A DNA stretch of 53,614 bases from an uncultured Candidatus Thioglobus sp. (GTDB lineage Bacteria > Pseudomonadota > Gammaproteobacteria > PS1 > Pseudothioglobaceae). Of this stretch, positions 12,689-36,013 are shown piece after piece (positions within the stretch are counted from its first letter, which is position 1; each line of letters opens with the position of its first letter). Location: the NCBI GenBank assembly GCA_905620445.1, contig CAJQTP010000005.1, positions 1 to 53,614 on the forward strand, in the 5' to 3' direction. Both the position numbers and the translations under genes were made by a program. The notes beneath the pieces are model-generated. The model was given only the letters and a program-made list of their open reading frames with translations. It was not told where the DNA came from and made no database searches.

Positions 12689-12718
12689 GTGATTAATAGT
12701 TCAACTCAAATCACTATT

Positions 12719-14281
12719 ATGACTAGAAGAAAATCAGGTGGAAGAGAGGCAAGAATTGCACTAAGAAGTGCGCCACTAGCAGAAGAAGAAAAACCTGTTT
12801 TACCAGGTGAGATTGGTGGAAGATATAAACCCCTTAGTGACAAACAAGTTATTGATATTGAAGCTAATATTTTTCGAATTCTAGAAGAAATTGGATTTGC
12901 TGATGCCACTCCACACTGCATTGAAACTTGCGTTGCTTTTGGGGCTATTCTTGGAGATGATGGTAGATTAAGAATGCCAAAAGAAGTTGTTGAAAAAGCC
13001 ATGAACCTTTCACAGCGCAACCTCACTCTTCATGGGCAATCCCCAAAACATGATTTAGATTTAAGTGGCTCAAGAGTTCACTTCTCAACTGCTGGCGCTG
13101 CAGTTCTTATTGCTGACCCTGAGAACAACGAGTATCGAGAATCTGAAAGTCAAGATCTATATGATATGGCTAGAATTGCAGATCAGTGTGAGCATATTCA
13201 TATGTTTCAACGTACTTGTGTTTTGAGAGACATTGCTAGTCCTCGTGAGATGGATCAAAACTCAGTTTATTGTGTGGCAATGGGAACTGAGAAGCATTTA
13301 GGCGCAAGCTTTACAGAAGCACAGCACGTAACTGATGCTCTTGAAATGCTTCATATTATTGCTGGGAGTGAAAAAAAATGGCGTGAGAGACCATTTTTAA
13401 GCATGAGCAATTGTCATGTTGTACCTCCAATGAAATTTGCAGAGGAATCTCTAGAATGTGTTCGTGTTGGCGTTGAAGGTGGCATGCCAATATTACTTCT
13501 ATCGGCGGGTCAAGCAGGGGCAACTGCTCCTCCTCTCCTTCCAGGTGTTGTATCCCAAGCTTGGGCTGAATGTCTTGGCGGACTGGTATATGTGAACGCT
13601 ATTAAACCAGGTGCACCGGCCATTCTTGGTACCTGGCCTTTTGTGTCTGACTTAAGAACTGGATCAATGTGTGGAGGCTCTCCAGAACAAGGATTAATTT
13701 CTGCAGCTTGCGCGCAGATGGGTAACTTCTTAGATCTGCCAACTGGAACTCCTGCAGGAATGACAGACTCTAAGTTCCCAGATTTTCAAGCAGGATCAGA
13801 AAGAGCATCTACTCATACAGTTACAGCAATTGCTGGAGCCAATATAATTTATGAATCTGCGGGAATGTATGCAAGTCTTTTAGGAACTTGTCCTGAAAGT
13901 TTGCTGATGGATAATGATTTATTGGGTGCGTCAATGAGAATGACTAAAGGGTTCAATGACGATAGTGAAGAGTCTCTTTGTTTTGAAACGATTAAAGATG
14001 TTTGCTTGAATGATAAAGCTCACTATCTTGGTTCAGATCTAACAATTAGCGTTATGCAAAGTGAATATATCTTTCCTGATTTAAGTGATAGGGATAGTCC
14101 AAATGATTGGGCTGATATGGGTAAGCCTGTTCTACTAGAAAAAGCAATCCAACGAAAAAAAGAGATACTATCAGAACACTTTCCAAGTCATATTAGTGAT
14201 GACGTTGATCAACAATTACGCGCAAAGTTTAATATCAAATTAAGCAGAAAAGATATTGGACGCAAGCCACTTAAAAAATAA
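12719..14281 (+). CDS. Non-pyrrolysine MttB-family (trimethylamine methyltransferase-like) protein
   Basis: A 520-residue MttB/COG5598-family methyltransferase. I prefer ATG 12719 (MTRRKSGGREARIAL) over GTG 12689, because basic starts of this kind leading into LPGEIGGRYKPLSD are typical of the family. The frame is uninterrupted with no in-frame amber codon, so it is the non-pyrrolysine type, whose characterised members (such as MtgB) demethylate quaternary amines like glycine betaine and pass the methyl to a corrinoid protein. No corrinoid protein or corrinoid-folate methyltransferase is in the window. It is 9 bp ahead of the dimethylglycine-dehydrogenase-like gene, so the two form an operon for methylated amines. 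The exact amine is unknown. Confidence 0.85.
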   Translation: MTRRKSGGREARIALRSAPLAEEEKPVLPGEIGGRYKPLSDKQVIDIEANIFRILEEIGFADATPHCIETCVAFGAILGDDGRLRMPKEVVEKAMNLSQRNLTLHGQSPKHDLDLSGSRVHFSTAGAAVLIADPENNEYRESESQDLYDMARIADQCEHIHMFQRTCVLRDIASPREMDQNSVYCVAMGTEKHLGASFTEAQHVTDALEMLHIIAGSEKKWRERPFLSMSNCHVVPPMKFAEESLECVRVGVEGGMPILLLSAGQAGATAPPLLPGVVSQAWAECLGGLVYVNAIKPGAPAILGTWPFVSDLRTGSMCGGSPEQGLISAACAQMGNFLDLPTGTPAGMTDSKFPDFQAGSERASTHTVTAIAGANIIYESAGMYASLLGTCPESLLMDNDLLGASMRMTKGFNDDSEESLCFETIKDVCLNDKAHYLGSDLTISVMQSEYIFPDLSDRDSPNDWADMGKPVLLEKAIQRKKEILSEHFPSHISDDVDQQLRAKFNIKLSRKDIGRKPLKK

Positions 14282-32985: not shown

Positions 32986-33528
32986 ATGAATAAAAAAACT
33001 AATCTTATCTGGATAGATCTTGAAATGACAGGACTAATTCCTGAACGCGATGTCATTATTGAAATAGCTACAGTGGTTACTGATGCAAATCTAAATGTAA
33101 TAGAAGAAGGGCCCTCGTTAGCTATTCATCAAAATAGTGATCTCCTTGATGGGATGGATGAATGGAATACGAGCCAACACAATCGATCTGGACTTGTAAA
33201 AAGAGTACTAGAAAGTACAATTTCCACCGCTGATGCAGAATCCCAAACCTTAGAATTTCTTATTAACTATGTTGACCAAGGGGCATCGCCAATGTGTGGT
33301 AACTCAATTTGTCAGGATAGAAGATTCTTATACAACTATATGCCAAATCTTGAAAAGTTTTTTCACTATCGCCATATCGATGTTTCGACGTTGAAGGAGC
33401 TAGCAGTTCGCTGGAAGCCGAGCATTCTTTCTTCCTCATATAAAAAATCTAGGCACCTCGCTTTGTCTGATGTTTATGACTCTATTGACGAACTAAAACA
33501 CTATAGAGAGCATTTTATTAACACATAA
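32986..33528 (+). CDS. orn: Oligoribonuclease
   Basis: A 180-residue DEDDh exonuclease. The start at 32986 ([17 protein letters not shown]) fits the family; a longer frame from 32899 lies inside trpD. Visible motifs are [18 protein letters not shown] and [14 protein letters not shown]. It degrades 2-5 nt RNAs and pGpG and is essential in many gammaproteobacteria. One base separates it from ispE. Confidence 0.95.
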
Positions 33529-33529
33529 A

Positions 33530-34381
33530 TTGACTTACTTATCCCCCGCTAAAATTAATTTATTTTTACATGTAACCTCAAAAAGGCCTGATGGATATCA
33601 TAATCTTCAAACCATTTTTCAGCTTTTAAATTATTGCGATGAGATAAGCCTTGATTATAGAGAGGATGGAATAATCAATCGATTAAGTGGCAATGAAAGC
33701 ATTCCACAAGATCAAGATCTAGCAATACGCAGCGCCACTATACTGAAAAAAATGACTGGATCAAAAGGTGGCGTAGATATTGGTATAGCTAAAAAAATAC
33801 CAATAGGAGGAGGCCTAGGAGGCGGGAGTTCAAATGCTGCGACTGTTTTAATTGCTCTAAATAAGCTTTGGAGTCTTAATTTATCTAAAGAAAAGCTGAT
33901 GCATATTGGTCAAAATCTTGGTGCAGATGTCCCAGTATTTGTTAATTGCCATAGCTCATGGGGCGAAGGTATAGGTGAAATACTTACCCCAATAACCCTG
34001 CCTAAATACTTTTATTTAATTGTTTCAATTGACAAACATATATCCACGAAAGAAATTTTCACACACAAAGCATTGACAATGTCTCCAGTACAAAGGAAAA
34101 TAGCAGACTTTTCAATGGTCTCTAATCCACATAACGACTGCTTAGATGCTGCAATTCATTTGGAAGGTGAGATAGAAGAGGCTTTAACTCATCTAGACTC
34201 AACTGAAAACCACCTTGGAATTGCAAGAATGACTGGAAGTGGATGTTGTGTTTTTGTAGCCTTTGAAAAAGAAAAAGATGCATTGATAGCAAATAATAAA
34301 TTGCCATCACAATGGTTTGGTTTTGTCGCTAAAGCGATTGATAAATCACCATTACATAATTGGGGTGTAGCCAAGTGGTAA
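33530..34381 (+). CDS. ispE: 4-(cytidine 5'-diphospho)-2-C-methyl-D-erythritol kinase
   Basis: A 283-residue GHMP kinase of the MEP isoprenoid pathway. Seen are LSPAKINLFLHVTSKRPDGYH at the start, the ATP motif PIGGGLGGGSSNAA, and TGSGCCVF near the end. It uses a TTG start 1 bp after orn. Remarkably, its last six codons and stop (TGG GGT GTA GCC AAG TGG TAA) are also the first 21 bases of tRNA-Gln, so the C-terminus WGVAKW is templated by a tRNA gene. RNase P cutting at 34360/34361 would remove the stop codon from the message. Confidence 0.95.
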   Translation: MTYLSPAKINLFLHVTSKRPDGYHNLQTIFQLLNYCDEISLDYREDGIINRLSGNESIPQDQDLAIRSATILKKMTGSKGGVDIGIAKKIPIGGGLGGGSSNAATVLIALNKLWSLNLSKEKLMHIGQNLGADVPVFVNCHSSWGEGIGEILTPITLPKYFYLIVSIDKHISTKEIFTHKALTMSPVQRKIADFSMVSNPHNDCLDAAIHLEGEIEEALTHLDSTENHLGIARMTGSGCCVFVAFEKEKDALIANNKLPSQWFGFVAKAIDKSPLHNWGVAKW

Positions 34382-34435
34382 GGCATCGGGTTTTGATCCC
34401 GTGTACCGATGGTTCGAATCCATCCGCCCCAGCCA
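34361..34435 (+). tRNA. tRNA-Gln(UUG)
   Basis: A 75-nt cloverleaf. The acceptor arm TGGGGTG (34361-34367) pairs with CGCCCCA (34425-34431) with one G-T pair, discriminator G, and encoded CCA (34433-34435). The anticodon stem TCGGG/CCCG(T) encloses loop TTTTGAT with anticodon TTG at 34393-34395. The T arm reads ATGGTTCGAATCCAT. It closely tracks E. coli tRNA-Gln. Its 5' 21 bases are the end of ispE. Confidence 0.96.
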
Positions 34436-34473
34436 TCTTTGTATGAATTATCTTCTAAAATAAGGCAAGATTC

Positions 34474-34953
34474 ATGAAGGAAAATATATACCAATTTAAA
34501 TTTAACCAGCTTGATGGTGAAGAAGTCTCTTTAAGCAAATTTCAAGGCAAGGCGATTTTAGTTGTAAATACTGCAAGTTTCTGTGGACTAACTTATCACT
34601 ATACTGGACTAGAAAAACTCTACCAAAAGCACAAAGAGAATGGCCTAGTAATAATTGGCTTTCCTTGTAACCAGTTTGGCAAACAAGAGCCTGGAACTGC
34701 AGAAGAGATAAAAGATTTTTGTAACTTAAATTATGAGATTTCATTTCCTATGTCTACAAAAGTTGACGTCAATGGTGAAAATGCCCACCCTCTTTTCAAA
34801 TATTTAAAGAGTGAACTAAAAGGAACATTAAACAATAGCGTCAAATGGAATTTCACGAAATTTCTAATTGACCGTGATGGCATCCCTTTTAAGCGCTTTA
34901 GTTCAACTATTGAGCCTGAAGACATTTCTACATCAATAGATAAAATACTATAA
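34474..34953 (+). CDS. Glutathione peroxidase family (thiol peroxidase) protein
   Basis: A 159-residue GPx-family enzyme with active-site Cys37 in NTASFCGLT, FPCNQFGKQEPG carrying the Gln (and a second Cys that could serve as resolving residue), and VKWNFTKFLID with the Trp and Asn. Cys rather than selenocysteine is encoded. It reduces peroxides with glutathione or thioredoxin in the cytoplasm. It is inserted between tRNA-Gln and prs, which are usually adjacent in gammaproteobacteria. Confidence 0.9.
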   Translation: MKENIYQFKFNQLDGEEVSLSKFQGKAILVVNTASFCGLTYHYTGLEKLYQKHKENGLVIIGFPCNQFGKQEPGTAEEIKDFCNLNYEISFPMSTKVDVNGENAHPLFKYLKSELKGTLNNSVKWNFTKFLIDRDGIPFKRFSSTIEPEDISTSIDKIL

Positions 34954-35014
34954 ATCATCAATTAATTCTTAATTCAAATTCAAAACTATTGTGCTTAGCT
35001 CCGTAATTTGTTTG

Positions 35015-35020
35015 TATAAT
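35015..35020 (+). promoter_or_regulatory. prs -10 element
   Basis: TATAAT lies 30 bases before the prs start; a TTGTGC at 34989-34994 could be a -35, but at a long 20-bp spacing. The start site would be near 35027. Confidence 0.45.
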
Positions 35021-35050
35021 TGCACCTTACATCAATAAAAGCACAGCCGG

Positions 35051-36013
35051 ATGTCTCTAGAAAGAATAAAAATCTTTAGCGGAAACGCAAACCCTGATCT
35101 CTCATCCGAAATTATTTCAAATCTGAACATCAAACAAAGCAAGGCTTTTGTTGGTCAGTTCAGTGATGGTGAGGCTCAAGTTGAAATTCTTGATAATGTT
35201 CGTGGATGTGATGTTTTTGTGATTCAGCCAACCTGCGGCCCCTCTACTGCTGAAACCTTAATGGAATTATTAATAATGGTTGATGCACTTAAGCGCTCAT
35301 CTGCCGGGCGAATCACAGCTGTCGTTCCATATCTAGGCTACTCAAGACAAGACCGACGTTCAAGATTAACTCGCGTTCCAATAACTGCAAAACTTGTCGC
35401 TCAAATGATTGAAACATCGGGAGTAGACCGCATACTAACAATGGACTTACACGCAGATCAGATTCAAGGTTTTTTCAATATCCCAATTGATAATATATAT
35501 GCACTGCCCGTACTTGTTCAAGATGTTTTAGATCATAACTATGAAGATGTAATTGTGGTGTCTCCAGATGTTGGTGGAGTTGCAAGAGCAAGAGCTGCAG
35601 CGAAGAGAATTAATGATGCAGACCTTGCAATTATTGATAAGAGACGACCAGAGCCAAACTTAGTTAAAGTCATGAATGTAATTGGTGAGGTAGAGGGGCG
35701 CACTTGTATTATGATTGACGATATGGTTGATACTGCAGGAACTCTTTGCCAAGCGGCTGAAATATTAAAAGAAAAGGGTGCAAAAAAAGTTGTTGCATAC
35801 GCAACTCACGCAGTTCTTTCTGGCGGCGCTATAGAAAATATATCAAACTCTAAACTAGATGAACTTGTCACAACAAATACAATCCCATTGACAGAAAAAG
35901 CAAAAAAATGCAGCAAGATTAGGCAATTATCTATTGCAACAACTCTTGCAGACGTTATTCGACGAATTAGTGACGAACAATCCATCAGTACAATTTTTGC
36001 AGATTCAAACTAA
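35051..36013 (+). CDS. prs: Ribose-phosphate pyrophosphokinase
   Basis: A 320-residue PRPP synthase with [13 protein letters not shown] at the N-terminus, [26 protein letters not shown] and the PRPP loop [14 protein letters not shown]. It makes PRPP for nucleotides, histidine, tryptophan (trpD) and NAD (nadC), the last two encoded nearby. Length is typical. Confidence 0.97.

Follow-up and report, generated by a model that had tools for sequence, protein, structure and literature searches.

An ispE stop codon inside tRNA-Gln and a putative tRNA promoter embedded in ispE of Thioglobaceae and other Gammaproteobacteria

Genes and features of the ispE/tRNA-Gln locus

The window, i.e. the whole stretch of 53,614 nucleotides that was analysed (contig CAJQTP010000005.1), belongs to a 54%-complete draft genome of 0.91 Mb; among named organisms, those closest to this genome are Candidatus Pseudothioglobus and other Thioglobaceae. 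The window harbors an ispE ORF of 283 codons, which scores 240 bits against TIGR00154 (cut-off 138.7) and ends within the tRNA-Gln gene that follows it. The features of the locus are:

32986-33528, plus strand: orn (oligoribonuclease), immediately upstream of ispE
33530-34381, plus strand: ispE (4-diphosphocytidyl-2-C-methyl-D-erythritol kinase), TTG start, TAA stop at 34379-34381
34073-34078, plus strand: candidate -35 hexamer TTGACA, the Leu-Thr codons TTG ACA of ispE
34096-34101, plus strand: candidate -10 hexamer GAAAAT, after a 17-nt spacer from the -35 hexamer
34360/34361, plus strand: predicted RNase P cleavage site, placed by the position of the mature tRNA 5' end
34361-34435, plus strand: tRNA-Gln(UUG), found by ARAGORN and by Rfam RF00005 (64.1 bits)
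34361-34378, plus strand: last six ispE codons TGG GGT GTA GCC AAG TGG (WGVAKW), equal to the acceptor 5' strand and D-arm of the tRNA
34379-34381, plus strand: ispE stop TAA, located in the D-arm as bases 19-21 of the tRNA gene
34474-34953, plus strand: glutathione peroxidase-like gene, between tRNA-Gln and prs
35051-36013, plus strand: prs (ribose-phosphate diphosphokinase), the usual partner downstream of ispE/tRNA-Gln in the class

The two genes overlap by 21 nt. The original prediction, according to which the codons for WGVAKW and the stop are the first 21 bases of the tRNA, proved correct in its coordinates when compared with the ORF and with the ARAGORN and Rfam matches; in standard tRNA numbering, assigned by hand, the stop corresponds to U20-A21-A22. 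The locus is therefore a same-strand overlap in which a coding stop lies within a functional tRNA gene, and this arrangement recurs in relatives (see below). It also follows from the geometry, as had been proposed, that the predicted RNase P cut at 34360/34361 would remove the stop codon from a full-length ispE transcript. Upstream, orn and ispE are probably co-transcribed.

Elsewhere in the window, Rfam reports PYLIS_3, the pyrrolysine insertion element of mttB, with 55.5 bits at 13760-13859, within an uninterrupted MTTB-family ORF (12689-14281); the gene after it encodes FAD-dependent oxidoreductase and GCV_T domains. Since this MttB homologue contains no in-frame UAG, the match reflects gene homology and not pyrrolysine.

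A conserved promoter-like element within ispE

The sequence TTGACA-N17-GAAAAT at 34073-34101 (ispE codons 182-191) has both hexamers of a sigma-70 promoter at a distance within the usual 16-18 nt, with a predicted transcription start at about 34107-34110. The -10 hexamer, which differs from TATAAT at positions 1 and 3, is separated from the tRNA by 259 bases in the window, the median across loci being 284 nt. In a pattern scan of 33300-35100 the element is the top promoter-like match (10/12), and promoter-like sites in this region were no more numerous than in shuffled sequences, so that the case for a promoter rests on conservation. Over the final 90 nt ahead of the tRNA, promoter-like sequences were not enriched compared to ispE control windows (mean fraction scoring as high, 0.53).

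Conservation of the element indeed goes beyond what protein sequence and codon usage account for. TTGACA is present in all 72 Thioglobaceae ispE sequences, and TTG ACA is used in 152 of the 154 other sequences with Leu-Thr at this position, where about 6% would be expected from codon usage (these and the following figures are raw locus counts, which ignore phylogenetic kinship). Each of the 152 non-Thioglobaceae sequences with TTGACA also carries, at a spacing of 17 nt, a -10-like hexamer whose second base is A and whose sixth is T. Even among ispE genes with more than 60% GC, in which TTG represents 17% of the Leu and ACA 19% of the Thr codons, TTGACA is found in 59 out of 59. When 83 conserved ispE dipeptides were compared, this pair was the sole extreme, with 99% observed and 5.9% expected, the next most overused pair reaching 22%. 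Because neither the protein sequence nor codon bias explains TTGACA, selection on the DNA is the best reading, and the element very likely represents a sigma-70 promoter, embedded in ispE, that drives tRNA-Gln (and prs). Its conservation in most of the sampled Gammaproteobacteria is in our view a more interesting result than the overlap itself.

Further properties of the region were noted. Three clades show elevated synonymous conservation over the final third of ispE; in two of them, the last 20 columns stand out by themselves. The elevation extends over 34110-34360 in several clades, and the two hexamers do not fully explain the pattern in the last third of the gene. In other Gammaproteobacteria, the stretch after the -10 hexamer has a GC content of 72% vs 55% for the gene. 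Stable-RNA promoters under stringent control are known for a GC-rich stretch at this place; in ispE, part of the GC richness may stem from the protein motif.

The distribution of TTGACA relative to the downstream genes bears on the question of what the element serves. Among 163 non-Thioglobaceae loci with an adjacent tRNA-Gln (taken from a class sample, with some named relatives added, by rank of IspE similarity and hence not at random), 146 have TTGACA and 17 lack it. It is missing in 6 of the 14 loci with a gap of more than 140 nt vs 11 of the 149 others, as if an intergenic promoter could replace the embedded one in long-gap loci. Alternatively, the element might serve prs and the genes further downstream rather than tRNA-Gln. 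In support of this reading, prs was detected no more than 800 nt away in 123 of the 125 class loci that have tRNA-Gln, and two loci (L155 and L169) possess TTGACA and prs, but no tRNA-Gln. A third locus, L258, keeps TTGACA with neither tRNA-Gln nor prs in the stretch covered, which brings the retention of TTGACA to three of the five non-Thioglobaceae loci with room downstream, but without tRNA-Gln. An overlooked tRNA can be discarded for these three loci, since neither ARAGORN nor an Rfam search found a tRNA-Gln downstream of ispE; they are candidates for tRNA loss or for a prs promoter. As they keep TTGACA without tRNA-Gln, prs may be a further client of the promoter, or even its first. However, TTGACA is absent from E. 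coli, the Pantoea symbionts, L072 and L080, in which ispE is followed by prs without tRNA-Gln, although most of these may represent one lineage, and in the window another gene is located between the tRNA and prs. We therefore consider an element devoted to prs instead of tRNA-Gln unlikely, if still the strongest of the alternatives; tRNA-Gln is the likelier main client, with prs as a possible second one.

Recurrence of the overlap and capture of the ispE frame by the tRNA

We searched 83 Thioglobaceae genomes, of which 74 gave an ispE match and 71 allowed both features to be read. The 21-nt overlap is identical in 45 of these 71 genomes, including single-contig genomes such as G007 (for L016 the overlap was deduced, since its contig ends within the tRNA), and one further genome, L042 (Candidatus Vesicomyosocius), has an overlap of 36 nt, which results in 46 of 71 with overlap. 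In the other 25 genomes, the ispE stop is located 0-28 nt ahead of tRNA-Gln. By genus, overlap is the rule in g5 and g9; it also occurs in the sole genomes of g4 and g11, in 20 of 23 genomes of g1 and in one g8 genome. The window's own genus also contains members without it: in G008 a TAA is followed by three bases and then the tRNA, and in G015 and G028 four bases separate the stop from the tRNA. On a tree of IspE (core only, with six outgroup rows), the overlap label requires six changes, at least four of which are forced by well-supported branches. Since stops before the tRNA have also been regained, the overlap looks tolerated rather than needed. This tRNA-Gln is the only copy detected per genome: with the 75-nt query, a single match was obtained in 72 of the 83 family genomes, one more MAG having it split over two contigs and the rest none. 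General genome compaction does not account for the overlap, given that in G007 only one of 30 tRNAs examined overlaps an upstream ORF, namely tRNA-Gln.

Outside Thioglobaceae, the overlap occurs in 16 of the 163 loci with tRNA-Gln beside ispE, distributed over several families, with lengths of 21 nt (eight loci), 15 nt (three), 10 nt (three), 36 nt (one) and 64 nt (one). These lengths reflect the stops that the tRNA offers. Read from base 1, the first stop ends at base 21 in 210 of 233 tRNA-Gln genes; the second frame contains a TAG ending at base 10 in 46 of 233; the third is stop-free in 221 of 233. In two unrelated lineages, L042 and L327, the D-arm TAA is replaced by CAA, and ispE ends 36 nt into the tRNA at a TGA that overlaps the anticodon. 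From this we conclude that the ispE frame is caught by stop-like triplets in the conserved core of the tRNA, which is why the overlap lengths are mostly quantised (10, 15, 21 and 36 nt), and that loss of a stop beside a tRNA has repeatedly led to an overlap that is tolerated. The longest overlap seen is that of L321, where the ispE frame extends 64 nt into tRNA-Gln and encodes the tail GVSPSGKARGFDLRIPRFES.

The peptide tail of IspE is a by-product of the overlap. The second tail residue (G, A or D) tracks base pair 5-68 of the acceptor stem. This pair is G-C, C-G or A-T and thus remains Watson-Crick throughout, so that RNA pairing rather than a protein need shapes the tail. A protein role for WGVAKW was accordingly rejected, the tail also being absent in relatives with a stop before the tRNA.

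It is conceivable that the overlap itself is selected, in that removal of the stop lowers IspE output from an over-transcribed message. The overlap is kept in 46 of 71 Thioglobaceae even though one or few substitutions would create a stop before the tRNA, as in G008. Against this stand the repeated changes of the label on the tree and the trinucleotide AAT just before the tRNA (34358-34360 in the window), whose frequency may be due to a leader preference of RNase P; it is common in the family whether it is coding or not. We regard selection for the overlap as improbable.

Slightly less probable still is the view of the original prediction that tRNA-Gln is made solely from the ispE transcript, so that each transcript gives either tRNA or a properly terminated IspE, and isoprenoid synthesis is coupled to tRNA processing. 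In its favor, the overlap is genuine and has lasted fairly long in several genera, orn, ispE and the tRNA are located on the same strand with almost no space between them, promoters are not enriched in the last 90 nt before the tRNA, and the window's own genome encodes a tmRNA (G000:C2:4429-4778, 198.9 bits) and with it a rescue system. However, the putative internal promoter about 260 nt upstream of the tRNA is strongly conserved and is the same whether or not the stop overlaps, and the overlap has been lost repeatedly while the gene arrangement stayed. A separate tRNA promoter had been named beforehand as evidence against a single transcript, and judged from the sequence this is largely what we find. 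Given the conserved promoter inside ispE, tRNA transcripts without the ispE start codon are to be expected. Moreover, one full-length transcript could serve both products, if translation came first and cleavage later. Regarding the proposed regulatory link between the isoprenoid kinase and tRNA processing, the overlap has been repeatedly gained and lost, with frames and lengths dictated by the tRNA, and thus gives no sign of being kept up for this purpose. The strict either/or model is weakened, and non-stop messages from the full-length ispE transcript remain plausible. Finally, an assembly or annotation error, a concern raised by the draft status of the genome and previously put forward as a way in which the overlap could turn out to be spurious, is ruled out by the same overlap in independent and single-contig genomes.

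Two putative transcripts and the fate of the ispE message

The explanation that we favor as a whole, with a probability of roughly 0.7, is that two transcripts share the DNA and that the overlap is tolerated. The embedded sigma-70 promoter would give rise to a short RNA whose leader measures about 250 nt; RNase P would release tRNA-Gln from this RNA, which may extend to the downstream genes. It would probably be the main source of the tRNA, and such transcripts could fold and undergo RNase P cleavage with no translation as full ispE at all. The full-length ispE mRNA, starting upstream, would read into the same tRNA-Gln. Its ancestral stop would have been lost or shifted and the frame caught by the first in-frame stop of the tRNA, the UAA of the D-arm. 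Early ribosomes would terminate there and produce IspE with the tail WGVAKW, until the tRNA folds and RNase P cuts, whereupon full-length messages should lose their stop codon and the ribosomes on the leftover mRNA would need rescue. Some ribosome rescue of ispE messages is thus plausible, and in 45 of 50 family genomes a tmRNA match exceeds the cut-off. With its probable own promoter, tRNA-Gln supply need not depend on ispE messages; the overlap would be tolerated because this supply is independent of the translated message and because little IspE is needed.

The closest parallel, and a measured one, is the tRNA punctuation of human mitochondria, which yields non-stop mRNAs (PMC9674279; Ojala 1981 cited there), and where, for MT-ND1, flanking tRNA sequence supplies the in-frame stop (PMC9674279). 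In both systems an mRNA abuts a tRNA, and cleavage at the tRNA end, predicted in the case of ispE, sets the mRNA 3' end and leaves non-stop messages. In contrast to mitochondrial-type punctuation, in which an incomplete DNA stop is finished by polyadenylation, the UAA of ispE is fully encoded at 34379-34381, deep in the tRNA, and no polyadenylation completes it; the ispE locus further differs by a bacterial RNase P, tmRNA and probably a separate tRNA promoter. In E. coli, secG leuU and similar mRNA-tRNA operons are separated by RNase P (reference 63 in PMC3985628). Like ispE/tRNA-Gln, secG leuU unites a protein gene and a tRNA on one transcript that is processed by RNase P, but it is not known for a stop codon inside the tRNA.

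The open-access papers searched report neither this overlap nor this promoter, subscription papers being outside the scope of the search. Intragenic sigma-70 promoters occur in bacteria. The ispE element resembles them in that a promoter within a coding sequence would drive the next gene, and differs from others in that its hexamers are fixed at synonymous sites class-wide, ahead of a tRNA gene.

A bolder generalization, which we put forward tentatively and at somewhat less than even odds, would be that across Gammaproteobacteria (in the GTDB sense) a promoter written in ispE codons drives an essential tRNA-Gln, while in many lineages ispE borrows the tRNA's stop, resulting in a mutually embedded pair whose non-stop ispE messages are routinely cleared by rescue. 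The recurrent overlap means that there are natural bacterial messages expected to lose their stop by normal tRNA processing, and it offers a direct test bed for the competition among RNase P, translation and ribosome rescue. If the promoter is active, it would explain the unchanging synonymous ispE codons and the stable order of ispE, tRNA-Gln and prs, and the codons of a housekeeping enzyme gene would have harbored an essential tRNA's promoter across the depth of a bacterial class.
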